DNA of 64,000 nt from Fistulifera solaris (taxonomy: Eukaryota > Bacillariophyta > Bacillariophyceae > Naviculales > Stauroneidaceae), in contig AP026124.1 of assembly GCA_030295235.1 (NCBI GenBank), forward strand, positions 1,054,001 to 1,118,000. The letters run 5' to 3'. Both the position numbers and the translations under genes were made by a program. Position 1 is the first letter of the stretch. Each line of letters begins with the position of its first letter. The notes beneath the pieces were generated by a model, which saw only the letters and a list, made by a program, of their open reading frames with translations, did not search any database and was not told the DNA's origin. Shown here one piece after another: positions 13,336 to 60,250 of this stretch.

Positions 13336-13580
13336 TCAAGACAAAAATGCAGTCACAACGAAAGGTCGCCTACACGTTAGCCTACAGTAATGTTGCAGAA
13401 GAACGATCCGCAAACATTTTCCGACATCGAAAATCGAAGCGGGTGTTGCAAATGATGGTGATGGTAATTTCATCATATTCAAATCAATTATGACATGGAA
13501 ATCTTGCAGAACGAACTTAGTAAAAAGCAACAAGTTGTCTGGTTCAAAACGTTTTGGTTCGTGACTGAAACGCAGTCGTG
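13336..13580 (-). repeat. 220-bp repeat element, near full-length copy
   Basis: Read on the minus strand, the element starts with the motif CACGACTG-CGTTT-CAGTCACG (13580-13560). It continues with GAACCAAAACGTTTTGAACC, and later CATTTGCAACACCCGC and TTTGCGGATCGTTCTTC, and ends in a degenerate second motif (about 13356-13336). The same order of blocks is found in the copies at 21397-21822, which shows common descent. Confidence 0.7.
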
Positions 13581-13945
13581 GTTTCTGTGAGAACCAATAT
13601 TTGTGAGGTATCGTCGGATCCGTTGTTTTGTTTCGACCTTTTTTACCACGAGAGGGACGATGGGGACTTCATTCCATTGCAATAAGTAACGCTGATACCA
13701 AACTAATAGAGTTACAAATTTTCGTTATTTTGGGTACATCCATGCTGGTTTACATGGAGTTTAGGTCATCTGAGAAGTAAGAGATGCAATAGAGTTTTCT
13801 GCGCCTAGCAAATTAGGAGACAAGCCGCGGCTCGTTACGAAGGCGCCTCCGATAACTCCTCCCAGTGGCAATCGTTGCTTATCCCTCATGCGACTTACCA
13901 ATCGATAGAAATTTACGTGGCCGTCGAACACGTAGAGGAAGAATT

Positions 13946-14909
13946 ATGAATGTGTCTGAATCTGTCAACAAGGATGCAGCCCACGATGAATTTTGGGATA
14001 TTGCTTTGGAAGCGCACGGAACAACTTCTTTGCCTACAGATGCTGACGATGCTAGTAATTCTTCTTCCGAGGATCACTCGTTCATCACGATGAAACGTAT
14101 TACCTATCGGTTTAACTGTCCGTCGCGACCACCGTTTCGGGTGTCTTTAAGTCCTCTCGCACCGAAATCGGGAATATGGAGTCCTTTGGGATCAGATATC
14201 TGGTATGGATCCGCGCTTCTGACTGCTTTTTTTGTTTACGGAGGAAGACCACCCAGCAGCTGAACTTTTGCACCGTTTTCTCAGAACGAACCTTGCCTCC
14301 AAACTAATGAGTGAATTCAGAGTCTTGGAACTAGGGAGTGGTGCAGTGGGACTAACGGGTCTTGCTGCTGGTTGGATGCTACGTTACTACCCTGCTACTA
14401 CATCATCAAAGGACCGATTAACGCCACCCATTCGTGTAATATTGACCGACAACGAAGAAGATGTTCTTCAACAATTGAGACAGAATATCGAACATAACGT
14501 CGACTCTGTACAGCACGCTCCTTCGATGAGACGCGAGAATATTAATTACAGTGTGGAGTATTTGGATTGGCATGAGCCATCGCCTTTACTTTCGCTCGTG
14601 CAGCTTGTAGTTGGGTCCGAGCTTGTTTATAACAACGAAACGGCGAAAGCCTGCTTTGAGGTTGTGTGTTCTTTAATTGATCAAAATCCACATGTACTGA
14701 TTCTCATCATTCAAGTTTCAGATAGAGATGGATGGAGAGCTTTATTCATCCCTGAACTTCAAAAGCGAGACAATCTAGTTGTCGTGGAAAGTGTCTTATC
14801 TGACCCTTTACTTCACGAGAGAGCAGGCAGCTTGGTTCGCTTTGGCGGGACGCTCAATCGAGAGGATTACTCGCTATGCTACATATACAGTCACCATCTG
14901 TCCTTCTAA
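13946..14909 (+). CDS. Lysine methyltransferase-like protein (METTL21/EEF2KMT, Methyltransf_16)
   Basis: This is a class I SAM-dependent methyltransferase. The SAM-binding motif is FRVLELGSGAVGLTGLAAGW. It is followed by RVILTDNEEDVLQQLRQNIE (acidic loop), LDWHEP and VVGSELVYNNETA. This order is that of Methyltransf_16, which modifies lysines in elongation factors and chaperones. The N-terminal part (GIWSPLGSDIWYGSALLTAF) supplies the W-xx-G segment before motif I. The frame changes by one base at the T7 run 14227-14233. Removing one T gives ALLTAFLFTEEDHPAAELL and an exact codon count of 321. I start at the ATG 13946 because the earlier in-frame start is only a GTG. The protein substrate cannot be told from sequence. 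Confidence 0.8.
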
Positions 14910-14990
14910 ATGGAATTTTATGCTATCTTGTTACTTTTATCTTTACGTTAATTTTTCTACTACTGCAATTTCTGCCGGCGCTCTTTGAAA

Positions 14991-16416
14991 CTACATGAGC
15001 AAGCAATCCGTGTCTGGTGAAGTGGGTGTTGAAATTTTTCGAAGGACTGCAAGCAACGGCATCCATTCTTCGTCATTGTTAATTTTCGGAAGCACCATGG
15101 AATAAAAACCGTAATCACCCCTCTCCTTCGGCCAGGTTTTCAAAACAAACTCTTTGAGTTGATCGTCCGACATGCGGGGAGTGCGCATCAAAGCTTCGCG
15201 AGTCGCAAATAGAGCCATGCATTCCAAGTACTCTACATAGTGAAAAGAAACAGTTTCTTTGGAGCAGCAATCCTCTCCCTGAAGCAGCTCACCGTACGAT
15301 TTGTCAAAACCACTAAACGCCTCCATACCTTCATGCTTGTTGTGATACCAGCCATCAACTTTCCCTGCCACGACACGCGTTAGCGGGAACGCATGGAATC
15401 GATGCCACTTGTTGTGTTCTCTCGTATCAATAGCATGAATACCGATCGATTCCAGGCATTGTGCGGTCACAAGACCTGGATTTCCTTGCAACCATGCAGA
15501 TGCATCCGGTCCTACCCAACATTTGTCCGCGTGTTCGTCCCATTTTTGCATCAATTTCTTCATAGTTCCCCGCGAAAGTAAATAACCGGCCGCTCCTGAA
15601 TTAAACACATCTTCTTTTCCGTTCCGTAAAGCGTGTCCGGCGTATAAATCGTCTTCGGCATTCAGTCCATCCAGATAGGTACACAAATGCTCCGGTATCA
15701 CAAAAGTATGATCATTGACAAAGAAACAAAAATCAGGATCCACCCTTTCATGAATGGCACGAATCGTATAAAACAGTCGAGGCAGACCGTCGTCTACACC
15801 AATCATATCCGGCAAAAGAAGCGTTTGAGGATAGCTAAATGTGTCGCTGGGTTCTTTCTCCTCCGAAAACGTCAGATGGCTTCCCTGGGGAAACTCGGTC
15901 TGGTTGTGTAGAACGAAAATAGCTCTCGCGTATGGTCCCCATGTTTTGTGAATCGAGTCTAGCCGGAGACCACGACCTTTGGAATTCACCACCGATGGCA
16001 CTGTCGAGACGAAAGAAGAAAATGAAAGATGAGGAGACTAGGCGCAAATAACGAACTCTCGGGGCATCCGCTTAAGTACTTACTAACAACAGTCACAAAG
16101 CGTGGCGGCCCTGAATAGAAATGATGATGAAAACCCTGTCGTCTTCGTCGAAAAACAGCCGTACCGTGTGCCCACGGATTTCTCATGACATGTAAAATGA
16201 CCTTTCGATGCTGGTGATGCAACAGAACGTATCCCAAAAAGAAACCCAGTATTAAAAGATTGCTACTGCCAAGGCAGCACATCGATCTTCACCTTTCCGA
16301 CGCCGTTGTCGTTTGACGGATTTCGGATTGTCACTTATACTACTTGGACTTGGATATTCGGAAGGCGCGTCGTCTTCGATGAGGTGCTTCTTCCGAGCGT
16401 GTAAATGAGACGCCAT
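14991..16416 (-). CDS. GT31 glycosyltransferase, C1GALT1-like, type II membrane protein
   Basis: Exon 1 runs 16416-16084 and exon 2 16000-14991. The intron splits an ATG codon (VTVV-MPSVV). Exon 1 has a basic cytoplasmic tail and one TM (NLLILGFFLGYVLL), as in Golgi transferases. The lumenal domain resembles core-1 beta-1,3-galactosyltransferase: KTWGPYARAIFVLHN, PDFCFFVNDHTFVIPEHL, FNSGAAGYLLSRGTMKKL, CWVGPDASAWLQGNPGLVTA, WHRFHAFPLTRVVAG and ETVSFHYVEYLECM. The usual DDD metal site is N-D-H here. From the ATG at 16416 (MASHLHARKKHLIEDD) the frame needs one more base before the TM; the count then fits the splice phase exactly. A start at 16282 (MCCLGSS) is the alternative. Donor and acceptor sugars are not known. 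Confidence 0.8.
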
Positions 16417-16893
16417 TCTCTTTAAATGTGTATTATGTTAATTAGTCAAACCAATAACAATGAAGGGCTTTACTTGCAAAGAATCACTGTTTGTTTCATA
16501 ATGTATGGTGCCTATGATAGCCAATAATAATGTTGCTGGTTAATGCAAAGACAATTATTTGATCGGAGTGTATCTTTGCGTGATTTGTCGTGCAACGCTA
16601 AAAGTCTTTTTTATTGTGCGACATGTGTGCGACGGCGAAGAAAATGGATCCTAATTCATGACTGAAATCCAGTCGTGGCCAAAAACAGACAACACTTAGA
16701 ACTACAGTAAAATTTGAAGCTCTTTTTTATGATACAACTAACCGTATACGGTACTCAAACTCATTTTTCTTATAAAAAAATACAATACTGGAAATAATAA
16801 AACCTCGTCCCCCCTGCTCACCCCACCTTTTGCAAAACCAATGCGGCCGTTTAGTTTCATCGATGATTACCAGGTATAGTCAAAGTCTGCAGC
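16417..16893. other. Divergent intergenic region
   Basis: It holds a hairpin motif (16657-16677) and the palindrome TACCAGGTA (16868-16876), 18 bases before the Mcm10 start. No gene was seen. Confidence 0.5.
16657..16677 (-). repeat. Solo hairpin motif of the 220-bp repeat family
   Basis: The sequence is CATGACTG-AAATC-CAGTCGTG. Its reverse-strand upstream flank, AAGTGTTGTCTGTTTTTGG, matches the flank of the motif at 21582 (AAGTGTTTTCTGTTTTTTG), so more than the palindrome is shared. Confidence 0.65.
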
Positions 16894-18802
16894 ATGGACG
16901 ACTTATTTGCCCTCGTCGAAGAAGACGATAATCAACAGGCTCTAGGAGGAGATGATGTGTCGCAGACCTCTGAGCCTCGTCGAGGAGACTCGTCTTCTCC
17001 TGCCCCTCCGAAAAATATTCACGAAAGACTGTCATCGTCGATCGATGCACAAATTGGTTTACGAATTATCAATCGCAAGATATCGGGAGCCGAAATGATG
17101 GATATGATCGCGGCGTCAGTCTATCGATCGCCGGCTATACTCAGTGCCATGAGTCTTGAGGATCTCAACAACCATATTCTCGCTGAGCCCACATTGGTGG
17201 TCAATGCTGCTACCGTTTGTGGCCGCACCAATTTTTGCACTGCAGGGATGGTCTTCTCCAATTCCGGAACACGAATTTCTTCGACAGGAAATGCCTTTTG
17301 CGCTCTGACATTGGGTAATTTTGCCAGTGGCCCCGCCATTAGTGTTTTACTCTTTGGGACTGCTTACAGCAAGTACGTCCGAGCTCTGACACCGGGAAAA
17401 GTCGTCTTTTGGAAAATCCTCGTCTCGCACCTAGTAAAAGCAATAGCTCCGACCGCAAAGATACTTCCATTTCGTTTTCGGCTAGCAATGAGAGGGAAAT
17501 TCAACTCGTGGGAGATGCACAGGACTTTGGAATTTGCAAAGCGATGGTTCGCGGCAAGAATGAAAATGGACAGTGGACGGACAACGCGAAGCGCTGTAAA
17601 ACGTACGTGGATACTCGCGAGTGCTTGTACTGCAAAGTTCACCGTCAGCAAAACAACGTCGTGGATAAATCGTCGGGGAATAAACTGGACAAACTCCGAC
17701 AAGAAGTAAGAGAGAATCTGTCTCAATCCAAATTACTGGGTCATCGACCGGGAGATCATTTGCAAAGACCGACCAATCCAGCACAATCCATGCTCCGTTC
17801 GGCGGCTCAGCCATCAGTGGGATCAAGTGTCCGCGCTTATCAACCATATGAAACTAGGCAACAATCGACTAATCCACTTCTGAATGATTGCGTTGCTAAA
17901 CCAGCAGTACGACACGGCGCTGGGCCTGCCGCTATTTCAAGAAACCTACATCAAAGTTCGACCAAAGTGACCCCTACAACAAGTCAATTACCTTGTCGGG
18001 GTATCGTGAGCAAGAAACGACCCTCTGTTCCGACCACGTCCAAACCAAATTTTCTTAGTCAGATTTCCGGAGGTCGATCGAATGGGAACAAGAGGAAACT
18101 TGGATCGGTCAACACGGACACAGATCATTTCGATGGCCAAGTTGCAGTGCCCAAATCCAAACAATTTGTTCCTATCGACCGAGAAAGGGCCTCTGCGTAC
18201 CAGGCCAAGCATCAACGACCCGTTCTAGAAGTTGGGTCAAAGTCGGAAACGGACATTCGTATGCGCCAAAGACAACTAGCAGAACAGCGTAAGGGCGACA
18301 TCAAAAATCTTCCTTTGAGGCCCACGCCGCAAAATCGGCTTCTCTCTCAGAAGAATGGCCCCGAGGCGATTCAAAAGGCCAAAGGAAGCGACATTTTTGG
18401 GTCCGTGAGCAAAGATGAAATGGCGCGTGTTATGGCCGCCAAGAGTCGCTTCGCCGATGAAGCTGACGCGGAAGAATATGCTCGAGCAAGACAAGCGGTA
18501 TCGGAGCTCGAAAAGAAGAACTCAAAGCTTTACGAAAAGACAAGAACAAGCAGAACAAAACAAATCAACGACAGTCGTCTATCAAGACGGAATACTTTTG
18601 CGTACAATGCAAGCGAAATTATGTGAAAGTTCCACGGTCGTGTCACCTCATGGAGCACAAGATACGTATCGATCGAAAAATTCTAGGTACTCAAACCACG
18701 GCGGAGAAGCGCATGATGCTTTCGACGAAAAGTGTGGAAGATGGCGGTATGGTTTTGGCTCAAGGTATCGATTGGGACAGTCGATTTAGCTATAGATCCT
18801 AA
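16894..18802 (+). CDS. MCM10: DNA replication factor Mcm10
   Basis: This protein of about 636 residues loads and activates the replicative helicase. Recognised parts are an N-terminal acidic stretch, the OB-fold with SGPAISVLLFGTAYSKYVRA and LTPGKVVF, the Mcm10 zinc finger DFGICKAMVRGKNENG ... RCKTYVDTRECLYCKVH, and a C-terminal zinc ribbon EYFCVQCKRNYVKVPRSCH. Two one-base frame changes occur: at the T4 run 17407-17410 (after PGKVVF) and the A4 run 18535-18538 (after KLYEK). One extra T and one extra A give a single frame of exactly 637 codons through to the TAA at 18800. Both domains and the C-terminal ribbon are conserved on either side, so the gene looks functional. Confidence 0.88.
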
Positions 18803-18851
18803 AACGATACGTGATTTCTTGAGCACTGCTACTATAGAACGAATGTAAAAT

Positions 18852-19400
18852 TTAATGAGCTTCTTCTTCGCAGTGGGTCTTGTATGCGTCAGCGTTCATC
18901 AATGACTTCAATTCCGCTTCGTCTTTCATTTCGATCTTGACAAACCAAGCTTTGCCTTCGGCCTCCGAGTTGACCATCCCGGGCTCATCCGAAAGAATTT
19001 CATTGACCTCAACTACAGTGCCGCTGACAGGCGCATATACATCCGATGCGGCCTTGACAGATTCGACACTTCCGAAGGATTCGCCCTTGGCGAATTCGTC
19101 TCCTACTTCTGGAAGATCGACGAAAACAATGTCACCCAATGCAGCCTGAGCGAAATCGGTAATTCCGCAAGTACCGATTTTTCCATCTACTTTGACGTAT
19201 TCGTGGGCTAGAAGAAGCAACGTTAGATACTGAAGTGTAAGGAGAAGCTTTCGATTTCTAATGTTTCAGTAAAAGCCTTACCAGGAGTAAAATAGGACGA
19301 AAAGCGGGCACCTCCGAGGTGTGTGACGCGGCTCATACGAGCGACGCTGTCGAACGATCGACGAGCTACTGTGCGGGTCAAAAAAGCTAACGGAGGCCAT
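18852..19400 (-). CDS. GCSH: Glycine cleavage system H protein, mitochondrial
   Basis: Exons are 19400-19282 and 19207-18852. The H protein carries the lipoyl arm between the P, T and L proteins in glycine decarboxylation and photorespiration. Conserved parts are HEYVKVDGKIGTCGITDFAQ, LGDIVFVDLPEVGDEF, the lipoyl site SVESVKAASDVYAPVSGTVV (Lys in ESVKA) and the C-terminal WFVKIEM. The ATG at 19400 opens MASVSF and is one base out from LTRTVARRSFDSVARMSRV, a good mitochondrial presequence. Dropping one T from the T6 run (minus strand, 19385-19380) joins them and fits the intron phase. An internal ATG at about residue 20 is a possible shorter start. Confidence 0.92.
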
Positions 19401-20059
19401 GTTGTATGCCTTAGTAAGGAAACGGGAAGATTTTTATTAGCTTTTGACGCTAACACGATTCTTTTCAATGCTATGAAACTCGTCTTGTCATTCTCCTCGC
19501 TTTTTCATTGCGATCAGTGCGGCGTTGCCGTTGCGTCACTGCAGCAGTATCTTCAGAAAGTTGCAAACGTCACACCTTCATTCTTGATGCTCCTGATGAC
19601 GTAAACACACATTTCCAACAGAAAATCTGGGGCAGTGGTGTTTTCACATATCCAGAAACTCTGGGGGTGTGACATTAAAAAATAATGTTCAGGAAATCTG
19701 GGGGTGTGGTATTGACACTGGTCCAGAAAATCTGGACCTGTTGTATTTTCACGTTCCCAGGAAATCTGGGGGTGTGGTATTGACACTGGTCCAGAAAATC
19801 TGGACCTGTTGTATTTTCACGTTCCCAGGAAATCTGGGGGTGTGGTATTGACACTGGTCCAGAAAATCTGGACCTGTTGTATTTTCACGTTCCCAGAAAA
19901 TCTGGGTGTGTGGTGTTTTCAAGTAACTTTATTAGTGTACTTCTCAGATGATAATCTGGTGGTGTTGTGTGTTGTCGTGCCGCAATCAAGCGAGTGGAGA
20001 ACATCATCCTCTTGCTATCCACCAAGTCCTTTTTATCTAGCAAGATCAACTATTACATA
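19401..20059. other. Divergent intergenic region with a minisatellite
   Basis: Apart from the tandem array at 19619-19927, I see no gene. Overlapping ORFs of 60-80 residues on both strands here are repeat translations without support. Confidence 0.6.
19619..19927. repeat. Minisatellite, nine units of about 34 bp
   Basis: Units start at 19619, 19653, 19690, 19724, 19758, 19792, 19826, 19860 and 19894. Each begins CAGAAAATCTGG or CAGGAAATCTGG. Two unit types alternate, one with GGGTGTGGTATTGACACTGG and one with ACCTGTTGTATTTTCACG, giving a higher-order period of 68 bp with three near-identical copies (19690-19893). The core CCAGAAAATCTGG is itself palindromic. Unit 2 is 37 bp and diverged. About 1.7 related units lie alone at 60251-60309. 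Confidence 0.92.
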
Positions 20060-21052: not shown

Positions 21053-22141
21053 GCGTCTGTCGACAAAGTGATAAAGCTTCTAATGGTCGTGTTGGGACTG
21101 TTGTAAGATGAGACGTTTTACTAAGCCTAGTGCCGATGTCGCGAAGTTGTTTCAGAATCACCGTACGTCGAATTTTTAACGTTCTTGACTTGGTGCGGAA
21201 GGAAAACAACGATCGTAACGCCATAGTCGGCGCACATCATAAATTACAGATAGAGCATGCAATAATATGACATAAGGAGTATAGTTCTAAGACTTTAATG
21301 CGTATACGTTTCCTACTTGAACGACACGGCTTCGTGCTGTAGAGATCTCGAGCTAAAATCCAGCAGCGGGTGGTCTACACAATAACAAAAAAACTTGTCA
21401 GCCAAACGCTACCGACACTCCGTTCAATAACCTCAAGCAAACTAAACTACAATTGTCAGTTGCACTACAAAAAAAACCTTTCGAAGCATTATTAGTTCAC
21501 GCGAGGATGCTAGACGTCGAAAACCGGTCGATGTCTGTATTTACTACCTGGTATAGGCCCAAAGTGTTTTCTGTTTTTTGCCACGACTGCAATTCAGTCA
21601 CGAAGCAAAAATTTTTGAGCCAAACTGCCACCGAACCTTCGTTTCGAACTCCATCAAACGAAACTACAAATGTTAATTGCACTATGACTACCCTTCCGAA
21701 GCATTTGCAGTCCACGCCACGGTGCTAGTAGACGTCGAAAAACTTTGCGGATCGTTCTCTTCACTATTTACGATCGATCCGAAGTGTACTCTCAACTTTA
21801 CCACGACTGCATTTCAGTCATGAATATTTATTGCGGAGTTAGGTGCTCGCTATCGCTCCGATATGGCTGATTCATACTCCGTAATACCTAAATCAATAGA
21901 AGGACCTGACATCGTTTATGATACAGATTGCGCTTCTGCGGATCGTTCTCAAAGTGCATATTTATTCTTTTCCTATGATCTATCGTACGACGGCTGGGCG
22001 AAAGACTTTTATGCCTCTGCCTATTCTTATCCGCGATCGCGCAACAAGCAAAAAAAAATCTGCCCCAAAAACCCGCGCAACAAAGCGGAGCGGGAATAGC
22101 ACACAACTATTATTCGTTTGCTTAGTATAACCCAATATAAT
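21053..22141. other. 1.1-kb intergenic region with tandem repeat elements
   Basis: Repeat copies occupy 21397-21822. A 78-codon ATG frame at 21863-22099 has no recognisable content. No RNA gene was seen. Confidence 0.55.
21397..21822 (+). repeat. Head-to-tail pair of 220-bp repeat elements
   Basis: Copy A is about 21397-21602 and copy B about 21603-21822. Both contain, in order, GCCAAAC, ACCGA, AAACTACAA, TTGCACTA, TTCGAAGCATT (or TTCCGAAGCATT), TGCTAG, GACGTCGAAAA and CACGACTG-CAATT/CATTT-CAGTCA. The hairpin motifs at 21582-21602 and 21802-21822 are exactly 220 bases apart. Identity is roughly two thirds by eye, so the duplication is not recent. Confidence 0.8.
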
Positions 22142-26632: not shown

Positions 26633-26701
26633 ATAAAACCAGACTACACTTTGAAATTATAGTAAATTTTACTATTGACCTAAGTGAAGACGACCTTTCT
26701 T

Positions 26702-26722
26702 CACGACTGGATTTGAGTCATG
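26702..26722 (+). repeat. Hairpin motif of the 220-bp repeat family
   Basis: The sequence is CACGACTG-GATTT-GAGTCATG, preceded by GACGACCTTTCTT (compare GGCGACGTTTCTT before the copy at 35075) and followed by CCAATGCCGCTACCTT (compare CCAAACTGCCACCGAACCTT in the copy at 21603). It lies between two convergent genes. Confidence 0.6.
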
Positions 26723-26956
26723 AACCGTCGTTGTGCTCCAATGCCGCTACCTTAGAAAGAATTGTGGATTGTGAAGCAAAGAGCCAAGGGAATTCTGGAC
26801 AACTAACAAGATGAAAAGCAAATGCTTGCACCAACGGCATTTCATCACGCTTTTTCATCGAGGAAGACGAGGACCCCTCAACTAAGGTGTCATGATGTGT
26901 TCACGCGTCCAATACTCACCGTCCCTTATTCGGTAGATGTGTCATACTCGGTTACA

Positions 26957-32500: not shown

Positions 32501-34944
32501 TTAATCTTCTTTTAATAATTGGTCGGCTAGCATTCTTAGACCAAACACACCTCTGGGTTCTGTATCCATGTATTCACATTTGGTGACTCTGGGTGGGTTG
32601 CCCATTGAGGACAAGAATGATTCCAGATTGTCAATCGAAACCTTTTGCCCGTGACTAACATGCGATACAAAGTTTTTCAGGTCCTTGTCATTTTCCTCCA
32701 ACACCTGGTTCACGACCACGTTCCGAACCTTGATCGGCATATCAGGGGCTTCGAACGTCAAGTCATTAAGTAAACGAATACTCTCACGCGCGGCAAGCTC
32801 GCTCGCAATTGTAACGATAAGAAATTCAGTCTGTTCAGCATCGGCAAACAAATCTTCTAGGTCGTACATCTGAAACTGAAACGACAGCAAAGCCGACTTT
32901 GCTGTAGCAGCAGCATTCGCAATCTGTTCTGACCTGGACGAACCACCGATGAACATTTTCACCAAGCTGTTTGAATTGACTTTTTCCGCGATGGCCAAAA
33001 GACGCTCAATCAACTCTGCAATAAATCCAGGAGTGCTGAGCATACGGAGCGTGTGCCCTGTGGGGGCTGTGTCAAGCACGATTCTGTCATAATCACCGTT
33101 CTTTACCAGCTTAATGATTTTTGCCAAAGCGACAACCTCATCAGTACCAGCTGGAAGTGTATTGAATACTTCTTGGATTTCTCGTAGAGTGTTGCGAAAG
33201 CCGGCATCAGCTTCGGAAGCATCATCCACCCCCACGAGTTGATCGACCAGACCTTTAAATTCACTGAGAGACGCGGCAGGATCTATCTCTAAAACAGAAA
33301 GACTTCCATCACCAGGAGGAACCCCTATCAAAGGGCAATCCACGAGGCGGCCTCCTGCCAAATTCATGTCAATTGCATCACCCAGACTGTGGGCAGGATC
33401 CGTGCTGATCAAAGCCACACGGTGCCCCTTCGCGGCCATAGTTACTGCCAACGAAGAAGACGTTGTTGTCTTACCGACACCTCCCTTTCCGCCACAAATG
33501 ACCACCTTTGGCGAGTTGCGCTCATTATGAGCTTCCATGAGATGAGCGAAGCCAGGATTCTCAGCGTAGCACTGATTCCCGAGATATGCCAGAGCTGGGA
33601 CACCAACAAGTTCGACATCGAAAAATGGTACCTTTGTCAGACAAATAGGATTTGGACTTCCATTCGCTCTGTACGCGTTGCTCTCACTAACTTCCTTTAT
33701 TGTTTCACTCAGCTTGTTCATCCATCTCTCCTGACCAGCACGTCTCCTTTCATAGTATTTCTCAAGAGGGGTTGTATCTTCTGTTTCCTGACCGCCAATG
33801 CACTGGTTGACCACAATATCGGTGACACTAACCTGCTGCGAGCCAAGCTCCGACACAAGACGTTTTGACTCTTGCACACCAAGCTTTGATGGGATTGTAA
33901 CTACGATAAAGTTTGTTTTCGACCTATCTTGTAGTTTTTCTCGCAGAATACCCATTTTGGTCCTAAATTTTTCCAAGCGGTTAACTGCATCGTCAATTGT
34001 TTTTGCCCTTTGCTCAGCTTGGGAATTTCCCAAAAACGCTTGCAGGGTTGAAGTAAGACCAGCCAGTTTCATCCTAAGGTTGATAAGCTTCCCTAGTAAT
34101 CCATCCAAGAACTTCGGTAAAGCCAATAGACGGAGGGTGTGACCTGTCGGAGCAGTGTCTACCACAATCACGTCAAAGTCACCCGCCATAGAGTCAGTAT
34201 CCAATACGTTCGAGAGAGCCACCAATTCATCGAGACCAGGGGGGAGGATTGTTGAGCAAACCACTGAACTCTCGAAGTCCAAGGCTCTCGAGAATGTCTG
34301 GCGAAATGTTCAATGCGTCCGCCAGCTGATCAATATCAAATGCAGCTAGATTTTCCCGGAACTCATCCAGAGCAGCTGCAGCATCTACCTCACAAGCAAA
34401 CAACCGTCCACCTGTCAACGGATCTGTCATTTGTAAAGGTTTGCCATGGCTCTTTCGCAAATCTTCATCCAAAGCATCGCCTAAAGAATGTGCAGGATCG
34501 GTGGAAACAATGAGGACCTTAAGATCCTTCTGTATATCGGATGCCAAGCTCACCGCAAGCGCAGAAGAAACGGAAGTTTTTCCTACTCCGCCTTTTCCGA
34601 ATAAGGGTGAGTATAACGTGGTGAATGGCGACGCATCGCTCTACAGAAATGTGCGCTGCTGTATCCATCGTACCTTTACCACCCACAAAAATAGTTCTTG
34701 TACCGCTCATAGACGAATCACTTAGGTCGTCCATGAGCGTTTTCAGCGAGTAAAGAGAGGATTGCGTTTGCCACGAAAAACATTCCGAACGTCGACGAGC
34801 TGATGGGGCAATTGTCGGATGCTCGACTCGTCGAATTCCACTTTGTGGATAAACTTGAAAAGCCCGCAGCGGCTGAAACGCATCGTTGATTCCGAGAATC
34901 AAGCATGCAGATAACACGATCACCAGAGCTTTTTCTGACCGCAT
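32501..34944 (-). CDS. GET3: Plastid GET3/ArsA-type ATPase with two tandem domains
   Basis: Exons are 34944-34674 and 34591-32501, about 786 residues. A signal peptide ([20 protein letters not shown]) with A-F marks plastid import. Two complete GET3-like ATPase halves follow. The first has [19 protein letters not shown] (its P-loop is split by the intron), [16 protein letters not shown] and [20 protein letters not shown]. The second has [36 protein letters not shown] and [23 protein letters not shown]3 inserts tail-anchored proteins and ArsA drives arsenite export; plastid forms are thought to handle thylakoid or chaperone tasks. One extra C in the C6 run (minus strand, 34244-34239) breaks the frame in [14 protein letters not shown]. 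Without it the codon count is exact. No CxxC zinc dimer motif was noticed. Confidence 0.88.
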
Positions 34945-35351
34945 GATGAACGTATTACATGAAAGCAAAAGAATAGAATACGTTTCAACAAAACTGCATC
35001 GCATGCGCCAACCGCAAAAAAAGTGACCGTTTCCCGATACGACACGTGGAACAGGGCTGTAGGCGACGTTTCTTCACGACCGGACGTCAGTCATGAACAT
35101 GAAAGGTTTAGAGCCAACTGCATTTGACAATCGTTCAATCTGCTACGTGGATAAATACATTTGCTGTTATCGCGATAGAAAAACCTTCCGCGGCATTCGC
35201 AAATCGATTTGATGTCCGTACTTTTGCGGATCTTGTCCTCCTACAGCACAAGTACCAGGTTGCTTATGGCTGGCTAAGGGTTCTTTGACTTCGATGATGT
35301 TTCGTTTCCTAGGCAGACAGCTTTCCTTACTTGGCTTAGATTTCTAAACAT
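34945..35351. other. Intergenic region with a repeat element
   Basis: It is mostly occupied by one repeat copy (35075-about 35260). No gene was seen. Confidence 0.5.
35075..35260 (+). repeat. 220-bp repeat element, partial copy
   Basis: It starts with the motif CACGACCG-GACGT-CAGTCATG. It then has GAGCCAACTGC, CTTCCGCGGCATTCGCAA, TTTTGCGGATCTTG and CTCC in the same order as the copies at 21397-21822. No second hairpin motif is evident at its right end. Confidence 0.65.
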
Positions 35352-47912: not shown

Positions 47913-49516
47913 ATGCGAAACTCTGAATCTTTTGAGACGATTGAGTCTCAGATTCTGGACTCCGCCACGCTGGTATCGCGCAATGATGAAGGGGACGATG
48001 GCGACGAGTCTCTGGAAAGAGATGTAGTCGATATAGATTTTGAGGACGACGGCATTCTTATTATGCCACCTGACTTTGAAGAGAAAAGTGATCACGACAG
48101 CAGTCTTTCGCTTCCAGAATCTGTACCCAGCACCGTTGGTAGTGTTACTGAGGCGAACAACAGAGAAGCGCAAGGCGATAACAAAGGACGAGGACAAGGA
48201 ATAGAGCACGAAGATGAAACAGAAGATACTAGAATCGAAAACGAGTTATCCGAAGAAAATCGCCATCGCCTTAGCAGCAGCGAACTTGTCTACGCGCGGT
48301 CTGGTATAACTTGGATAGGATACATGTGCTTCGTTGCTATGCTTTTTATCCATTTCTTGACATTCTACACGAAAGGTGCCGACATAACCCAATCCGCTAA
48401 CAGTTGCTCGCAGATTAGTTACAATGAAGCCCTTTCTAAAGTCGGTGTTTTGGAGAATCAGGTGCGCGATCTAGAAGCTGTACAGAAGGAAAACGAAGAG
48501 CTTCGAAAAAGGAACGCCCACTTGGACGATGTTATCCAGTCGATGGAGGAGATACAACGATCTATAACCGATAAAGCCCTTGCTAAAATCGACGTTTGGG
48601 AGAAAAAGAGGCGCGATCTAGAAGGTGTACAGAAGGAAAACGAAGAGCTTCGAAAAAGGAACGCCCACTTGGACGATGTCATCCAGTCGATGCAAAAGGT
48701 ACAACGATCAAACGACAGTCTTCGAACCAAAAACAAGATTCTAAAAGAACAACTAGAGTCGGAGGATTACTTTCGTTGTGAGAAGGAGAAGAATTTTACA
48801 GAAGTGATGAAGGAAGTGACCCGCCTAATGGACGGCGTGAACAAGAAAGTTCGTGACGCTCAAGTGACGAGGGAGGAAAAGTGTATGCAATCACTGGCAT
48901 CGCTCTCCGAAGAACGCGATCGTCTCTTAAGAAAAACCAGGCGTTTACAGGGACAGGTCAAGAAAATGAGAAAGAAGCTTGACCGCGAAGATGAGAACAC
49001 GAAGGAAGCGAAACGAAATGCAAAGGAATCGTTTCGTTGGGAGAATACTGACGAAACCAAGGGACCAATTATCGAGAACTGCTGGTTACAAGTAGGTCTT
49101 GGTGAGTGCTCAAAGGGCGCCAAAATCTCATTACACGAAGGCACTCAGAAAGTGACCGAGTCTCTGTGGAATGCCAAGAACACATTTTCTACCACATTGC
49201 GTGAGCTCAAAGAGGGACTCAAGGATAGTGCTTCGTCTTTGCTTTCTCGTAAACATGATAACGGGACAAATCATGATAAGGCATCCAGGAAGCATTACGA
49301 AAAGGTCGACGAGGAGTATGGCGACTATTATGACAAGTTCCAGGATGATATAATGGAGTTTGTCTCAAATAGCGTAGAATCGTTGAAAAGAACGAGCGCA
49401 TAGTAAGTATCGGAAACACGGCCAAGTCGGTCTTGACTGGGGTCGTATTTGCGGCAGCGGCTTCCTTGATTGTTTCTAGTACTTTTGTCGGCGGGATTTT
49501 TTGGCGAAGATGGTGA
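47913..49516 (+). CDS. Coiled-coil membrane protein with an internal duplication
   Basis: About 534 residues. An acidic N-terminus is followed by one TM (WIGYMCFVAMLFIHFLTFYT, about residues 138-157), a long charged coiled coil, and a second hydrophobic segment at the end (LTGVVFAAAASLIVSSTFVG, then GIFWRRW). That last part lies in another frame: one added A in the A4 run 49386-49389 joins SLKKNERIVSIGNTAKSVL and gives exactly 535 codons. Without it the protein stops at 49403. The coiled coil contains a near-identical duplication of 27 residues (RDLEAVQKENEELRKRNAHL and RDLEGVQKENEELRKRNAHL, starting at about 48468 and 48615). Function is unknown. Confidence 0.65.
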
Positions 49517-52230: not shown

Positions 52231-52306
52231 TAGCAAAGAGACTGCATTGCATGCGATCGTAGTAGAATTAAATCAACGTTTAAACTAGTTTACGTACGTC
52301 GTCACA

Positions 52307-52585
52307 TCAAATCAGTCCATCATCAATGTCTTCATTGGGAACAAGTTGCATATCACCAAGAACTTGACTCGCTTGCTGATACCTGATATCTAGAAGTCTT
52401 TGTTGACGACGTAGACGCCATCTTGCGTAAAGACGCCATAAGACAAAAACACCGACAATGCAAAATAAGAACAACAACCCAAAATATCTTTGTGCGTCGT
52501 CGTCTAAAGGCTTATTGGGTGCGGATGTTGGAGCAATGGTTGGTGGAAATGTTTCTTCATCTCCTTCCAGCTTTCTTGGAATCAT
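52307..52585 (-). CDS. Small single-pass membrane protein with PTxAPT motif
   Basis: 92 residues from the ATG at 52585. A PPTIAPTSAPNKP stretch, of the Pro-Thr-rich type common in diatom surface proteins, precedes a TM (YFGLLFLFCIVGVFVLWRLY). After this comes a basic run (ARWRLRRQQRLLDIRYQQ) and an acidic end (NEDIDDGLI). There is no signal peptide, and an acceptor-like CGACATAG lies just before the ATG, so this may be only the last exon of a larger protein. It is similar in plan to the exon at 3014-3201. Function is unknown. Confidence 0.5.
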   Translation of the reverse strand: MIPRKLEGDEETFPPTIAPTSAPNKPLDDDAQRYFGLLFLFCIVGVFVLWRLYARWRLRRQQRLLDIRYQQASQVLGDMQLVPNEDIDDGLI

Positions 52586-53496: not shown

Positions 53497-54098
53497 ATGG
53501 ACGACTTTGATATGGGATTACTCGATGACACGGAGTACATGAAGACCGTGTTGCGCCAGAAGATGCTTGGTATAGCACCTGTCTTCCTTTATCGCGTGCC
53601 GAAGGAAAAAGCCCCTGGGGTTGAATATTTGTGAGTCTGAAAGTTGTATGCTTTTATTTTTGTCATAAATTTGCTCACATCGTTCAACTGCCCTATTATA
53701 TTTCGCTCGAAAGAGCCGACGAGTGGAATCTAAAAAAGCCATTGCAACAATGTTCGTTACGCATCGAGCGTCGCGGAGATGTTCTCTTGATCGTATTTAC
53801 ATTCAGAAAAGAAGATATGAAGGGAAGTGCTCTGTTTGCTTTGTGTAAGATTGACTTGGTTAATACGACTTTGCCCATCGTCCATTGGGTTCAACCCGTT
53901 GGTGATTCTTCGAGGTATTTTGCCGTTCGAGTAGAAGACGAGAAAGGAGGTCGAGAAGCTGTCATCGGTTTAGGATTCCGGGAGCGAGAGGAAGCGGAAG
54001 ACTTTTGTCAATGTTTGGCGAACTACTCAAATGCTATTGCGCGTGAGCGCTTGGAGCATGCAATGGAGATGGTCGAAGACGTCGACGAAGATGTCTAA
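53497..54098 (+). CDS. NECAP: NECAP-like adaptin-ear-binding endocytic protein
   Basis: Exons are 53497-53630 and 53714-54098, 172 residues. The NECAP PHear domain is clear: TVLRQKMLGIAPVFLYRVP, ADEWNLKKPLQQCSLRIERR, GDVLLIVFTF, SSRYFAVRVEDEKGGREAVI and GLGFREREEAEDFCQCLANY. NECAP proteins bind AP-1/AP-2 ear domains and clathrin-coated vesicles through WxxF-type peptides. The usual C-terminal WxxF tail is absent; the protein ends in an acidic helix (EMVEDVDEDV). The intron has GTGAGT and CGAAAG borders and restores the A-D-E-W motif, typical of the family. Confidence 0.9.
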
Positions 54099-54627
54099 AG
54101 CTTTTTGTCTTTTCATTTCCATGTTTTCGATCTCTTGATACTTGAAGTAACCTTATAAATATCATAAACTCCTTACGTTGTCTCGCATTTATGACTAGGT
54201 GTGCTTTCTACGATTGAGCCTGTTACGGTGCAACCTCTGTGTTTACTCATGGCTTATCAACGTCTCTACCTAAATCTGAGAGATGGGCTACGAAAGGATC
54301 AAAGGTCCCCCCTTAGCAGGATTTGAGGATTAGCCTTTCTATGGCTTCGGTCACGTTTAGGGTCATTCACATTCTATTATTTCTTTGACATTCGAAGTTC
54401 TAAGGCTAATATTTTTTAACTGTCAAGCGTATAGTGACAGGTCATAGTCACTGTCATCCGACGACGACAAGCGGGAAATTTTTTCCACCTCGATAAACTG
54501 ATGGCAGGGATGTTTTGAACAACAACATACTTTTGGTTGTGGTGATTTGTCTGCTGATCTTATTATCGTCATCTTTGCTGTGGTGTGATTGAATTCGTCT
54601 GTGGAAAAACTCGAGATCCGTCCAAGA
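54099..54627. other. Intergenic region
   Basis: No conserved frame, repeat or RNA gene was seen. Confidence 0.4.
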
Positions 54628-55561
54628 ATGTCGGATAGCGATGACTCCTCCGACTCCTCTTCGGATTCCGATGGACCCTCGGCGCTCTCCGCGTTCATGA
54701 GTCGCCAGACGAAAAAGCGTGGAGACATAACAGCGTATAAAGGCTTTGAGGAAGACGATGACGGCTCTATCGCTCAGAAAATGAGAGCAGTTCTCGCTTT
54801 AAGAGAGTCCTTGGGCATTGATAACGACATTACCTTTTTGAAAGAGCAGGAAGAAAGGGAAAAGGAGAAAAAACGACTAGAAAGCATGACATTAGAAGAA
54901 CGAATGAAAATGGAAGAAGAGCAGGCTGGTGATATCATGGCAAAAATTCGCGCGCGTCAGGCCGAGAAGCAAAAGGAGCTTGATGCCCAAAAGGCAACAC
55001 AAGCAGAGGCTCGGGCGGCACTTGAAGCACAGTCTTCACCGTCAGCCGAGCCTGAGACGACCACAGATGACGCGGAAGCTGAGGGAGTCAAAAAGAAGAA
55101 AAAAGAAGAAGAAAGCGGATGGAGCTGAAGAGGAAGCGGAGAAAGAACCAGAAGGCAATGGAAACAACAAAACGAAAAAGAAGAAGAAAGACGTCGCTGA
55201 CGATGGATCAGATAATGAAGCCGAGAAGGACGAAAAGAAGAAGAAAAATCAAAACGAAAAAGAAGTCAGAGTCCAATGATGATGAACCAGAGGGTACCGA
55301 AGAGAAGAAAAAGAAGAAGAAAAAAGAAGCCGACGGATAGTACTGATGGTGAACCGACGGAGGAAGAAGAAACAGGCGAGACGAAGAAAAAGAAAAAAAG
55401 TAAAAAAGAAGACTGACGAAGAACCTGGAGAAGGCGACGATGGTGGCGAAAAGAAGAAAAAGAAGAAGAAACCTAAGGATGGTGAGGCTGACGCCGAAGC
55501 TGCTGACGCTGAGGGGGAGAAAAAGAAGAAAAAGAAAAAGAAGAAAGATGAGGAGGAATAA
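54628..55561 (+). CDS. Lys/Glu-rich, low-complexity protein (frame disrupted in the tail)
   Basis: From the ATG at 54628 the protein opens with an acidic Ser/Asp run (SDSDDSSDSSSDSD), then SALSAFMSRQTKKRGDITAY, DGSIAQKMRAVLALRESLGI and a helical KEQEEREKEKKRLESMTLEE region. The last 150 codons are poly-Lys blocks (five to nine K) separated by acidic spacers such as DGEADAEAADAEGE and ADDGSDNEAEKD. In the window these blocks lie in three frames that change at least three times (near 55100, 55245 and 55340-55400) within AAG/AAA runs. The last frame ends KKKDEEE at 55561. A single continuous K/E tail is likely. No family is recognised; such tails often bind nucleic acid or ribosomes. Confidence 0.6.
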
Positions 55562-55936
55562 TCTGTCTACATGCTAATTAGTGCAGCAATTGCTCTATAG
55601 AACTCTACATACTGCTTGTGTTACACCGGGTCTTTCAGTTAGTTGAATTTGGGTATGACATTGTTCTGCGTATTCGACAGGCGACAGGCTTTATTACAGC
55701 TTTTCAATTTCGTGACTAAAATCAATCCAGGACACACCGTTTGTTTATAATGCGAAAACCGCTGCGGCTTTTTTTCAACGGCTCATCCGAAAGCCACGGC
55801 CTTTTTTCTGGCGTGCTCACTTTTTCGTAAAATAATGGTTAAATCGCTCAACGGCAGGTGTGCTTTGATCGTAGCTTTATCATATTGATCCCAACAAAAG
55901 CGAAACTGGAAAACAATTTGCTATTATCGACTACAA
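55562..55936. other. Intergenic region
   Basis: A weak, degenerate hairpin-like sequence (CGTGACTAAAATCAATCCAGG) is at about 55711. No gene was seen. Confidence 0.35.
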
Positions 55937-57131
55937 ATGAGAGCGCGACTACGGACGACATTTCTGCTTTTAATGGCCCTTCTTTCTTTCATCTCGCTTT
56001 TACAATTTTTCATTTTGTTGCAACCCTTGAACAATTCCGCCTCGCTAACAACAACAGCAGCAGCGCGGTTACTAGCAGGATTTGTAGAAACGACCTCTGA
56101 CTTTAGCTCTCGACCAAAGGACTCTCTGAAGGTTTCGATGGCAAGCCAGACGCACTCGCACCATTTTTTCCGACACATGATTTGTTTTCCCTACGACAAA
56201 GTCTCAAACAGCTCAGAGAGCAAAGACTTCCTACAAACTCAACTTTTAGCCGACGACCGTTCTTTTCGAGTAAAACTAATCAAAAGAAATTTGGCGTTTC
56301 GGCCAATCAAGGTGACATTGCGACAATAGACCTGGCGCCGTCGAACCAAACAGAGAATCGCATAATATATTTTCTTCATATTCACAAGAGTGCTGGGTCA
56401 ACCATGTGCATTGGAGCACAGACAAATGGCATGAAAACTTCCAACAAGAATTGCAATGTTCAAAGAGATCAACGGTGCTGCGGAGGCGGAGACGACCTTT
56501 CATCACAACAGACTTTTGCCTTGTCGACCACGAAGAATTTCGTGGCAAATGAACAAGACATGTACGACGCGATGGATCTAGAGCACTACCGATATGTTGT
56601 CACTCTACGAAATAGTCGCGATCGGTATCTGTCACATTGGAAGCACGTTGTTCGCGCATTCTATCCAAACTACACGACCGACTTTGTAACTTGGTGGCAA
56701 AATCAACCGGACAACTGGAATTTCCGTAAGATATGCGGTACGAGGTGCATGTCGGTACCAAAGTTCCAGATCACCGAAAGCTTGTTTCAATACACGGTAG
56801 ATAGACTCCAGAATTTTGAAGATATTCTTCTTTTGAGCGTTTCAATGAAACATTTGCGACATTCGCACAGAATGTGGGATGGAACAAAATGCCTCTCACC
56901 AAAGGCGGCAAGAAGAAGAATGTTACTTACCCTGACGCAGGAGGAGAATGGGATCCGCTGATGAGTGCACTCGATGACGCGCTCTATGAAATGGGAGAGG
57001 CACGAGTCCGGGGTGAATCCGGAACACTTTTATCAACAGGAACATTAGAAGCAGTTCATCGTTACTTCGAAACTGGCAAGGACCGCTTCTGCGATTCTCC
57101 CTGTTGCTCGAGTGTCTGTTCTGCTTATTAG
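55937..57131 (+). CDS. Type II membrane sulfotransferase
   Basis: About 398 residues. A TM lies near the N-terminus (FLLLMALLSFISLLQFFILL). The PAPS-binding loop is IIYFLHIHKSAGSTMC (5'-phosphosulfate), and the 3'-phosphate site is YRYVVTLRNSRDRYLSHWKH, as in Golgi carbohydrate sulfotransferases. Later blocks are LQNFEDILLLSVSMKHLRH, FAQNVGWNKMPLTKGGKKKN and a Cys-rich end (FCDSPCCSSVC). Two one-base frame changes occur, at the T3 run 56181-56183 and at TT 56862-56863. Adding one T at each gives exactly 399 codons with the motifs in one frame. It probably sulfates cell-wall or secreted polysaccharide; the acceptor is unknown. Confidence 0.8.
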
Positions 57132-57671
57132 GCTAGAATAGGTTATGAAAAAATAACGATGTAATACGCACGGCACCTTTCGTTTGCAAGGGGCGGAACC
57201 TTTAGCTCGTCAGCCAACAGTAACTCTGGCGACTAATTTGTTACTATGCTATTAGCATATTTTTTTTCAATGTTCTTAACTTGTCAAGTGCCATTTACCC
57301 CTTGCGACGGTGAGGTTCCCTTCAGCAGCATTTACAATACTGAACGCCATTTCGTCTTCTTTTAATGCACTAGCTTGATAATATACGTTTTATTTTTGTC
57401 CTTAGAGCTAGAACGATTTCTTGTTTCTTACAGGCGCCAGCCATGGTTCAATGTTTCGAGCGACTGAAACGTTTCGACCTTGGTTCCCGATTGAACGTGA
57501 CTCCAAAAGTCATTGTAAACGTCAAACTTATTCTGGGCGCGCAACGGTTGTTGCACGAATCATCAGCACTATAATAAAAAACCAACGAAACGGCATTGCG
57601 CATTGTGCATCAACTCTTCTTTCTCAGTAATTCTTCGTCATTACAGCGATATTCGAGTCTCTTCTGTCAAC
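57132..57671. other. Intergenic region
   Basis: No feature is supported; ORFs here are short and unconvincing. Confidence 0.4.
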
Positions 57672-59428
57672 ATGTCGATAAAAGATAGATCGAATATACC
57701 GAGCGTCATCTGCGCTCTGATGGCGAGTCTTACCACCGGTGGAACGACCTATGCATTTGGGTTCTACGGAAATACATTGAAAAAGACATTAGATTTGACA
57801 CAAGGACAGATAGGAGCCATCTCCACATCGTTCTTTTGTGCTGGACTGTTTAGCTGGATACCAGGCCTTTGTGCGGATAAGTTAGGGACGAAGTTCTCCA
57901 TTGCACTGGGGGGGATGTTTGGGGGCGGCCTCGTTACTCGAGTTCTGGGCCGTGTCACGTCAGTTTGTGATCATCGAACGGCAATTACTTGTTCCTCTAC
58001 TCTCTGTTTTAAGTGTCATGATATTCTTGTCCAACGCTATGGTGACAGGTTCTGTTTTTAAAATTATTGCCGCCACATGTGGACACGGTAGCAAAGGCTC
58101 GGTGGTGGGCATTGCGAAAGGATACGTCGGCCTCGGTGCGGCAATGTACGGAGGTCTTTTTGAGTCCCTTCGGCAAAAAAAATCAAAGTGATCTTGATTT
58201 TATACCTATGGCGGCTTTCTTTGCTATCGTTTGTGCGGTAATACCTGCAGTGACTGTCCTGCCAACGAAGCAACAAGTCGACTCAACATCGTTTCAAGAC
58301 AATTTAACTCCGTTGCACTTCCGGATACTGTTTTGCTCGCTGATTACTATGGCGATTCTAGTCGCAGGAAGTAGCTTATTATCATTGTTTCAACAGAATG
58401 TAGACGCTTATGATGGAAACGACGAGTTGGATGATCTAGGACCGAATTACGGAATGTTCTTCGTCTTGGTCACAGTTTGGTTGGCCCCAATAATCGCTCT
58501 CCGCTACATTCCTACTAGCGCTACAAACGAAGGTGTCGAACTGACTATCCTTGATGACATGGACGAAGAAGAACACGACGAAGAAGGCAATTTTCGTGCA
58601 ACAACATCTCTCACAGAGCTTAAGGTGACAAGAGAAATGGACGCAGAGGGCGAGGAACACGATACATTGTTAAGAACAGATGATCAGGTCGACCTGAATG
58701 GAGAGGTTACACGCAAACCACTTTTAGGTGAAGATATGAATCTGTATCAGATGCTGCAGACGCCGACAGCTCTTCTCATGCTGTGGACTACAACCATTCT
58801 TGTGGGCTCAGGAACGGTGGAGACGAACAATATGGGAGAAATGGTTGAAGCGTTGGGCTTGGCCAAATCCGTAGGCCCCGCATCTATGACACTTTTTTCG
58901 GTGGCGCAGTGTGCGTCTCGTGTTCTGACCGGTGTCATTTCGGAATCCGCTCTCCAATGGAATGTGAGAGGTTTCGGCATGGACAAGGGTATTCCGCGTC
59001 CGATGTTTTTGGTATTTGCATCCATACTTGGTTTCACGGCACATTTGACTCTGGGATTCGCAAGAAATAAGTTTTTCTTCGTTTTGGGTGCTGCTCTGTC
59101 CGGTGGCGCGTTCGGAATGGTTTGGCCCATGTTGGTATTAGTAACCGGAGAATTGTTTGGAACCGGCAACGTTGGTGCAAATTATATGTTTTTCGATGGC
59201 TTCACTTCTGCCACTGGTACGCTGCTCTTATCGCAAGTTGTGGCTCAACGCGTATACGAGAAGCACATTGATGCCAAAAGTGAAGACACGACAACTTGCA
59301 TAGGTATGGCTTGTTTCCGTCAAACGCACTTGATCATAGCCGCGCTCATAGTGAGCTGTATGGCGACGAGTCTAGCAACTGTTTACGCTTCTCGACATGT
59401 GTACAATAAGCGACTGCATTCGCCATGA
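57672..59428 (+). CDS. Major facilitator transporter, nodulin-like type
   Basis: About 584 residues with roughly 12 membrane segments. The N-terminal part (SLTTGGTTYAFGFYGNTLKK, QIGAISTSFFCAGLFSWIPG) and the central VTGSVFKIIAATCGHGSKGS and VGIAKGYVGLGAAMYGG are typical of nodulin-like MFS proteins. A long acidic cytosolic loop (about 330-385) and a second half with GSGTVETNNMGEMVEALGLA and ALSGGAFGMVWPMLVLVTGE follow. The frame changes twice: one extra G in G7 at 57908-57914 and one extra A in A8 at 58175-58182. Removing them gives exactly 585 codons. Substrate is unknown; relatives move monocarboxylates, nitrate or metals. Confidence 0.8.
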
Positions 59429-59665
59429 TTTCATGGCAAGAAACTGCCTAGCTGGGTAGCAACTGGCTGCTACATCAAAACCACCTAAAATTCAAAAATG
59501 TGCTTTTGAATAATACTGTTTTAGTCTTCTCGATAATCCCGTGTCGTGGGTCATTTTAGTTTCAGTACGTTCGCAGGTTCATTCATAGAATTGACTTGCG
59601 TTCTCGCTTAAGAAAACAGCCTAAGATCGGTAACAGTTTATAACCTTAGCCCGAAAATGTTGCTT

Positions 59666-60151
59666 CGTGACTGAAATGCTGTCGTGGCGAAAAAAGGACA
59701 GCACTCATTTGGGCCCACAATAAGTACGGAAGACAACAATATTCAAAGTATTTCGACATAAAGCAGCATATCGTACCTGCCAACATCATCGAAACGTAAT
59801 TGTTTAGTAAATCGACAATTGTAGCTTATTTTGCTGGAACAATGAACGAAGGTTCGGTAGCAAGCCGTCTCGAAAAAATATGGACTCATGACTGAAGTGC
59901 AGTCGTGATAAAGTTGATTTTCCGCGATGGATTTTAGCCTCTAGAGTCAACATTACCATTGATAATCCGCCAGAAGGTTCAATAGTCTATTGAGAATCGT
60001 CTCGCGTGCTGTAGTCAAGCTGAAGGTACCATCATTGTTTTTATGCCTAATATAGCTACTGGTAACGAAACTAGCACAACGAATGGTTTTCTTGTGGTTA
60101 GACGGTCAGACGTCTCGCAATTTTTGAATTCATGACTGAACTGCAGTCGTG
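59666..60151 (-). repeat. Head-to-tail pair of 220-bp repeat elements, minus orientation
   Basis: Hairpin motifs stand at 59666-59686 (CGTGACTG-AAATG-CTGTCGTG), 59887-59907 (CATGACTG-AAGTG-CAGTCGTG) and 60131-60151 (CATGACTG-AACTG-CAGTCGTG), so spacings are 221 and 244 bases. On the minus strand the left element reads TGCTACCGAACCTTCGTT, AGCTACAATTGTCG and GGGCCCAAATGAGTG. It can be aligned with the copy at 21603-21822 (CCACCGAACCTTCGTT, AACTACAAATGTT). Confidence 0.8.
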
Positions 60152-60250
60152 GAAAAGATCGTGAACACATAAGCCTATAGTCCATGCTAACGCATCATCA
60201 CTGCGACATTATCCAGCTATACACAAACGTAATGCGTGCGGCCAGAAATT

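Follow-up and report, generated by a model that had tools for sequence, protein, structure and literature searches.

The 64-kb window analysed here, from contig AP026124.1 of the diatom Fistulifera solaris (positions 1,054,001 to 1,118,000; 45.7% G+C, 0 ambiguous bases), holds a family of dispersed repeats found as head-to-tail arrays and as solo ends, in which a hairpin marks the boundary of a unit of about 220 bp with no visible coding capacity; an arrangement of this kind had been put forward in an original prediction made from the sequence letters, and it stands. All positions below are those of the window. The hairpin, TTCRTGACTG-N(4-5)-CAGTCGTGR, is present in ten near-perfect copies at six intergenic loci, at 12993, 13560, 16657, 59666, 59887 and 60131 on the plus strand and at 21582, 21802, 26702 and 35075 on the minus strand. 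These are the ten intact copies that had been listed, and both a pattern scan and a weight-matrix scan, each set against shuffled sequence, return them. When both strands were searched with loops of 3-7 nt for CRTGACTG-N(4-5)-CAGTCGTG, read on each copy's own strand, six copies were exact over the 16 arm positions and four had one mismatch, while five first-order shuffles of the window gave 0 exact hairpins and 1 one-mismatch hairpin in total. The loop is 5 nt long in nine of the ten good copies and 4 nt in the other, and the right half ends in GTG in all ten. TT precedes 10 of 11 hairpins if the decayed copy described below is counted (59887 has CT), and TT also occurs inside the arrays.

The weight matrix, 24 nt long and built from nine of the copies, separates the family cleanly from background. 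The ten hairpins score 25.6-41.7 bits, against a best score of 21.9 in 20 shuffled windows, and the nine used to build the matrix score 27.3-40.8 when each is left out. The next-best sites are two of the known hairpins read on the opposite strand (14.1 and 13.4 bits), followed by position 55711 (13.0 bits); no site in the window scores between 14.1 and 25.6 bits. Three decayed copies had also been predicted, and of these only the one near 13336 is retained. Sites 55711 and 62867 (10.7 bits) both lie within the shuffle range and have no adjoining body, and they were dropped because of that chance-level score and the lack of a body alongside. The retained site, at 13337, scores 9.4 bits, itself chance level as a motif, and matches 10 of 16 arm positions; it lies between two in-register bodies and is accepted as a decayed junction solely from its position in the array.

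The seven inter-hairpin bodies, like the six loci, were first laid out from the hairpin positions, and the body profiles were built with the hairpin excluded and trained on bodies of other loci only, with ten shuffled windows as control. These held-out profiles recovered 7 of 7 bodies, each on the strand of its hairpin, at 13.1-49.2 bits, where the best shuffle scores were 3.5-6.4 bits. Since every body was recovered in the direction of its hairpin, with a score that no shuffle reached, the longer head-to-tail unit is real, as had been proposed, and the existence of the family is near certain. The features are as follows, with weight-matrix scores for hairpins and held-out profile scores for bodies.

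12991-13013, plus strand: hairpin opening the 13-kb array, loop of 4 nt (25.6 bits, 15/16 arm positions)
13013-13336, plus strand: body, long form, recognisable part about 13054-13196 (36.0 bits, best shuffle 5.7)
13335-13358, plus strand: decayed hairpin junction, kept for its place between two bodies (9.4 bits, 10/16)
13358-13559, plus strand: body (29.4 bits, best shuffle 5.7)
13558-13581, plus strand: hairpin, last junction of the 13-kb array (38.5 bits, 16/16)
16655-16718, plus strand: solo hairpin (16655-16678) followed by about 40 nt of the unit (the two together E 6.8e-9, outside training)
21801-21824, minus strand: hairpin, first junction of the 21-kb array (41.7 bits, 16/16)
21603-21801, minus strand: body (49.2 bits, best shuffle 6.0)
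21581-21604, minus strand: hairpin, second junction of the 21-kb array (38.9 bits, 16/16)
21370-21581, minus strand: body, far end without hairpin (17.7 bits, best shuffle 6.0)
26667-26726, minus strand: solo hairpin (26701-26724) followed by about 35-45 nt of the unit (the two together E 4.6e-6, outside training)
35096-35320, minus strand: body, near end without hairpin, recognisable part 35097-35237 (31.3 bits, best shuffle 6.4)
35074-35097, minus strand: hairpin of the 35-kb locus (33.7 bits, 15/16)
59664-59687, plus strand: hairpin, first junction of the 59-kb array (38.4 bits, 15/16)
59687-59886, plus strand: body (42.4 bits, best shuffle 3.5)
59885-59908, plus strand: hairpin, second junction of the 59-kb array (37.0 bits, 16/16)
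59908-60130, plus strand: body (13.1 bits, best shuffle 3.5)
60129-60166, plus strand: hairpin (60129-60152) closing the 59-kb array, then a short stub of unit (39.8 bits, 16/16; stub end taken from a profile trained on the same stretch)

The family claim rests on the profiles. Plain pairwise alignment of the bodies is weak: only 8 of 21 pairs exceed the 99% level of shuffles, a level that 2 pairs involving a flank also exceed. Whole-body pairwise identity among the seven ranges from 0.375 to 0.687, with no near-identical copies. Five ordered blocks had been described as shared between bodies; they are present, but each is exact at only 1-3 family places, plus at most one place elsewhere. The block GAACGATCCGCAAA recurs with one mismatch at 21935-21948, perhaps as a remnant; allowing 3 mismatches, it occurs 13 times in the window against 8.5 expected, a count matched in 8 of 100 shuffles and hence not clearly above chance. 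No other convincing body was found in the window with the four left-out-locus models. A borderline match lies at 9725-9797, with 8.4 bits in one model (shuffle maximum 6.0) and 0.5-4.2 in the other three. The 220-bp arrays go unreported by Tandem Repeats Finder at its default score, so standard annotation could overlook them, as it can other strongly diverged short repeats.

With H for hairpin and B for body, the 13-kb locus reads H-B-(decayed H)-B-H and the 59-kb locus H-B-H-B-H, both on the plus strand, while on the minus strand the 21-kb locus reads H-B-H-B and the 35-kb locus B-H; the hairpins at 16657 (plus) and 26702 (minus) stand alone. The 13-kb and 59-kb arrays thus begin and end with a hairpin, and the 21-kb and 35-kb loci have one at a single end. 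Junctions are spaced 344 and 223 bp apart in the 13-kb array, 220 bp in the 21-kb array, and 221 and 244 bp in the 59-kb array. The predicted spacings of 220, 221, about 224 and 244 are all recovered, and the 344-bp interval (12993 to 13337) is additional. By body profile, 12 flanks of 258-260 bp, the downstream flanks of the solo hairpins included, contain no further bodies on the unit's strand. The solo copies are nevertheless more than bare hairpins: the 45 nt downstream of 16657 resemble those after 21582, and the 45 nt downstream of 26702 resemble those after 13337 (each 0 of 4000 shuffles, with 55 pairs compared), whereas upstream similarity reached the 1% level for neither. The recurring module is therefore the hairpin plus about 45 nt downstream. 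These stubs alone are not detected by the body profile and rest on the pairwise comparison. On the minus strand, the solo hairpin 26702 is closely followed by a perfect 8-bp inverted repeat at 26659-26675 and a 7-bp inverted repeat at 26684-26704.

Open frames of at least 150 aa cover 65% of the window, and all six loci fall outside them save for one base at 12991, in agreement with the predicted non-coding placement; random placement without any frame overlap was obtained in 2 of 20,000 trials. We also considered a strand rule relative to genes. The array strand agrees with at least one neighbouring frame at 5 of 6 loci, but such agreement is automatic where the neighbours are divergent or convergent, and the rule was rejected.

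What the original prediction did not contain is the contrast between a conserved hairpin and a decayed body. The arms match at 15-16 of 16 positions in 10 of the 11 aligned hairpins. In a single alignment of these 11 hairpins with their flanks, pairwise identity in the arms is 0.90 for ten copies and 0.84 with the decayed copy. It is 0.64 for the loop, and on the flanks 0.34 over the ten preceding columns and 0.33-0.40 over the 55 that follow. Restricted to the eight intact hairpins that adjoin bodies, identity is 0.89 within the arms and 0.31-0.38 beyond them. In the bodies, 56.9% of 1179 cells agree with the majority among the other units, the unit itself being left out, in an alignment that includes uncertain columns. 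In the gapped alignment of the seven units the hairpin-holding steps reach only 0.45-0.47, lowered by one fragment row and by the decayed copy. Because the loci had been located by their hairpins, a tally was also made of just the 11 junctions flanking the seven bodies, at which 8 hairpins are intact, 1 is decayed and 2 are absent. If sites are assumed to be independent, which is an approximation, the probability of at least 8 intact junctions among 11 is 1.5e-14 at a per-site match of 0.569 and 2e-4 at 0.75. The contrast suggests constraint on the hairpin, and we infer, short of proof, that hairpins were kept in place as the bodies decayed.

The ages of the arrays bear on the same point. Adjacent units within arrays are identical at 0.54, 0.69 and 0.43 of positions, and units at different loci at 0.375-0.603 (18 pairs). 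Because two of the three adjacent pairs fall within the between-locus range, being no closer to each other than units from separate loci, the comparison points to arrays that are mostly old, or to a family that had become very diverse by the time of its spread. A recent burst of insertion is disfavoured, since near-identical bodies would be expected and there are none among the seven.

The hairpin is also asymmetric with respect to strand. One stem pair is always T.G, and at another place either A or G faces a T; both pair well on the sense strand and badly on the other. Predicted folding energies follow the same direction, with RNA means of -8.25 kcal/mol sense and -4.85 antisense (sense better in 10 of 11 copies) and DNA means of -3.86 and -2.44 (sense better in 11 of 11). 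Since both the pairs and the predicted energies favour the sense strand, folding models favour a single-stranded hairpin on that strand. Single-base changes in 12993 and 35075 alter the GACTG core yet retain a wobble pair.

Our tentative preference, which we would place somewhat below an even chance, is an old intergenic repeat whose hairpin has been retained as a strand-specific recognition element. The repeat family would be old and, as far as is visible, non-coding, existing as head-to-tail arrays of one or two bodies and as solo hairpins with about 45 nt. The body would decay in place while selection retained the hairpin of about 24 nt; the hairpin strand would become single-stranded, most likely as RNA through transcription across the intergenic gap; and it would then fold into a stem of 8-9 bp with a loop of 4-5 nt, to be bound or cut by a putative protein. 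From the same perspective, a selection-held, dispersed, strand-specific hairpin occupying many intergenic regions of an alga's nuclear genome amid repeat decay might represent a new type of punctuation element that acts in cis as RNA (or single-strand DNA) and is bound or processed by a dedicated protein, a wider claim that we regard as distinctly doubtful. If there is selection on the hairpin at these scattered sites, the family would offer a directly testable case in which a compact genome has turned a repeat into a signal of its own, and a way to reach the protein by which the hairpin is read.

A number of results weigh against such a recognition element and need to be set beside it. Compensatory changes are absent, with 0 of 9 stem pairs altered on both sides and 498 of 500 shuffles reaching the covariation score, and two of the ten good copies, 26702 and 59666, each break one stem pair. 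The T.G asymmetry may come from one founder, in which case the strand comparison does not represent ten independent events. When unit 21562-21830 is folded alone, the antisense strand does better (z -2.76, against -1.81 sense). No consensus base pairs are found in the body on either strand, the hairpin being the only common structure, and Rfam gives no match, either over the whole window at the gathering threshold or over 59500-60300 up to E 5. No placement rule relative to genes was found among the six loci. One adjacent pair, 21802/21582, is the most alike of all 21 (0.687). Moreover, loci and bodies were laid out from hairpins, a bias that the junction count lessens but does not remove; body-only scans found no clear body lacking a hairpin, but their models were trained on these same bodies. 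Several of these results together led us to reject a structured RNA spanning the whole unit, one of the candidates originally offered: there is no Rfam match, no consensus pairing in the body and no covariation, and the lone-unit fold does not favour sense.

The main rival, which we consider rather unlikely, is a non-autonomous rolling-circle mobile element resembling HINEs (the non-autonomous Helentrons known from mite, from Drosophila as DINE-1 and from oyster as Cg_HINE), moved by Helentrons and with the hairpin as its terminal signal. Copying of this kind would yield head-to-tail arrays, one hairpin per junction and one-ended solo copies, and this is the layout found: the arrays are head-to-tail with a single hairpin at each junction, and the solo copies start at the hairpin and continue downstream for about 45 nt, while their upstream sides show no similarity that reaches the 1% level. 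HINEs are likewise short, non-coding and dispersed, with palindromes near both ends, and some hold short tandem arrays of fixed orientation, to go by the excerpts of two reports (PMC4067079, PMC7492417). The palindromic subterminal repeats of mite HINEs are placed at 2-4 nt from the 5' terminus and at 38-60 bp from the 3' terminus (PMC4067079), a layout similar to that in the window, and for the oyster elements short dispersed tandem arrays are described (PMC7492417). In the window family, unlike HINEs, it is the entire unit that repeats in tandem, with a hairpin at each junction. Of the subterminal palindromes expected at both ends of such elements, the 13-kb and 59-kb arrays have a hairpin at either end and the 21-kb and 35-kb loci at one; the TT into which HINEs and Helentrons insert precedes 10 of 11 hairpins and is also present inside the arrays. 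The CTRR that follows the hairpin by about 11 bp in a canonical Helitron is absent at 2 of 6 loci and lies 27-60 nt past the set edge at the other 4 (79 nt examined). As for a separate 3' stem-loop 8-35 bp from the end, expected of HINEs and Helentrons, inverted repeats of at least 7 nt occur in only 1 of the 4 end regions scanned (that of 26702, with two pairs) and a second inverted repeat is lacking in the other 3, the scan having left out the 13560 end and the 21-kb end. Target-site duplications do not exceed chance: exact candidates extend to 4 nt and no further at each of the 6 loci, with uncertain edges, and random places give at least 4 nt in 438 of 500 cases. The seven bodies include no near-identical copies at identities of 0.375-0.687, and among the 30 of 49 long frames covered by a Pfam scan no Rep or Helitron-type domain was matched, the MCM matches being host replication proteins. 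A non-autonomous DNA transposon, as originally suggested, is thus possible in general terms, but neither target-site duplications beyond chance nor a Helitron end speak for it. Should the hairpin nevertheless be the end of a mobile element, the window would contribute a rolling-circle-like family in which a single hairpin is common to the units.

Two further explanations were weighed. The hairpin may be a double-stranded DNA dyad for a dimeric protein (a transcription factor, insulator or origin protein), the spacing of about 220 bp being left from past array duplication; the near-palindromic half-sites CRYGACTG/CAGTCRYG and the intergenic position at 6 of 6 loci, with the one-base exception, are what such a site would have. 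We judge it improbable, given that a symmetric site would let either half vary, while here the right half always ends in GTG in the ten good copies, that the spacer is 4 bp rather than 5 bp long in one copy, and that the changes in 12993 and 35075 alter the GACTG core but keep the wobble pair. The other explanation is a functionless relic satellite or dead repeat in which the conservation of the hairpin is a selection artefact of choosing copies by their hairpins. The loci were indeed found through the motif, 3 of 11 junctions have lost the hairpin, and the bodies are nearly unrecognisable, with 8 of 21 pairs above the 99% shuffle level. Such a relic is very improbable, for 8 of 11 body junctions are intact, far above expectation at the body's rate of change, and hairpins of intermediate decay are missing, with no site between 14.1 and 25.6 bits.

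Other classes of repeat were also compared. A satellite monomer, also among the original candidates, fits loosely, but at most two bodies per locus were recovered, with body identity of 0.375-0.687, and Tandem Repeats Finder is silent. A tRNA-derived repeat was rejected, no tRNA having been found in the window. The introner elements of Aureococcus, a stramenopile, are non-coding units of about 200 bp that lie in genes as introns; the window units are similar in size and non-coding, and lie instead between long open frames. Miniature inverted-repeat transposable elements (MITEs) are short non-coding repeats bounded by inverted sequence, and by that definition the window family is like them. Unlike MITEs, it has no target-site duplication beyond chance, and its ends are one shared palindrome rather than separate inverted repeats. 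The repeat table of Phaeodactylum tricornutum, in the excerpt of that report, has 235 MITEs and 873 unclassified repeats (PMC5859163). Terminal-repeat retrotransposons in miniature (TRIMs) such as Cassandra form arrays of the type repeat-internal-repeat-internal-repeat, as given in the excerpt of PMC7215508, and the succession of hairpin module, body and hairpin module parallels that form. In contrast to Cassandra, the module here is about 70 bp, with no match to the Cassandra primer site and none to 5S RNA (no Rfam match); the six loci have 4-6 of 12 mismatches to that primer site, the only tRNA site compared.

Relatives were looked for in viral and prokaryote collections, where zeros mean little for such a repeat. 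The strict hairpin pattern gave 0 matches in viral contigs and 0 in genome contigs, the relaxed pattern 0 and 2, and one body block 0 in viral contigs. Both relaxed matches are bacterial and score 3.8 and 3.7 bits with the unit profile, the hits spanning the hairpin and no more than about 10 nt next to it; they were taken as chance. Among the literature matches listed, the titles and abstract openings describe no such family, which is weak evidence, and the excerpt of PMC4247016, on P. tricornutum small RNAs, names no such repeat. The excerpt of PMC10706280, also on P. tricornutum, contains a single half-motif inside a long sequence.

The window holds a few other features, set down here in their own right. 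A second palindrome, CCAGAAAATCTGG, is present in nine copies with at most 2 mismatches at 19618-19905, spaced 34 bp apart (37 in one case). This stretch lies a short way upstream of a frame in which an RNA methyltransferase domain is matched, and looks like an array of protein-binding sites; the window total is 11, against 1.95 expected, and a perfect solo copy lies at 60275-60287, about 120 bp beyond the hairpin that closes the 59-kb array. Within a long open frame, 48427-48709 is a 147-bp tandem repeat of 1.9 copies with 88% matches, perhaps a repeated protein segment. A frame at 34522-34944 on the minus strand begins with a hydrophobic leader and then a ten-residue stretch, which we take to resemble a diatom plastid-targeting leader, and a DUF6824 domain is matched in the window, both presumably in keeping with a diatom origin.

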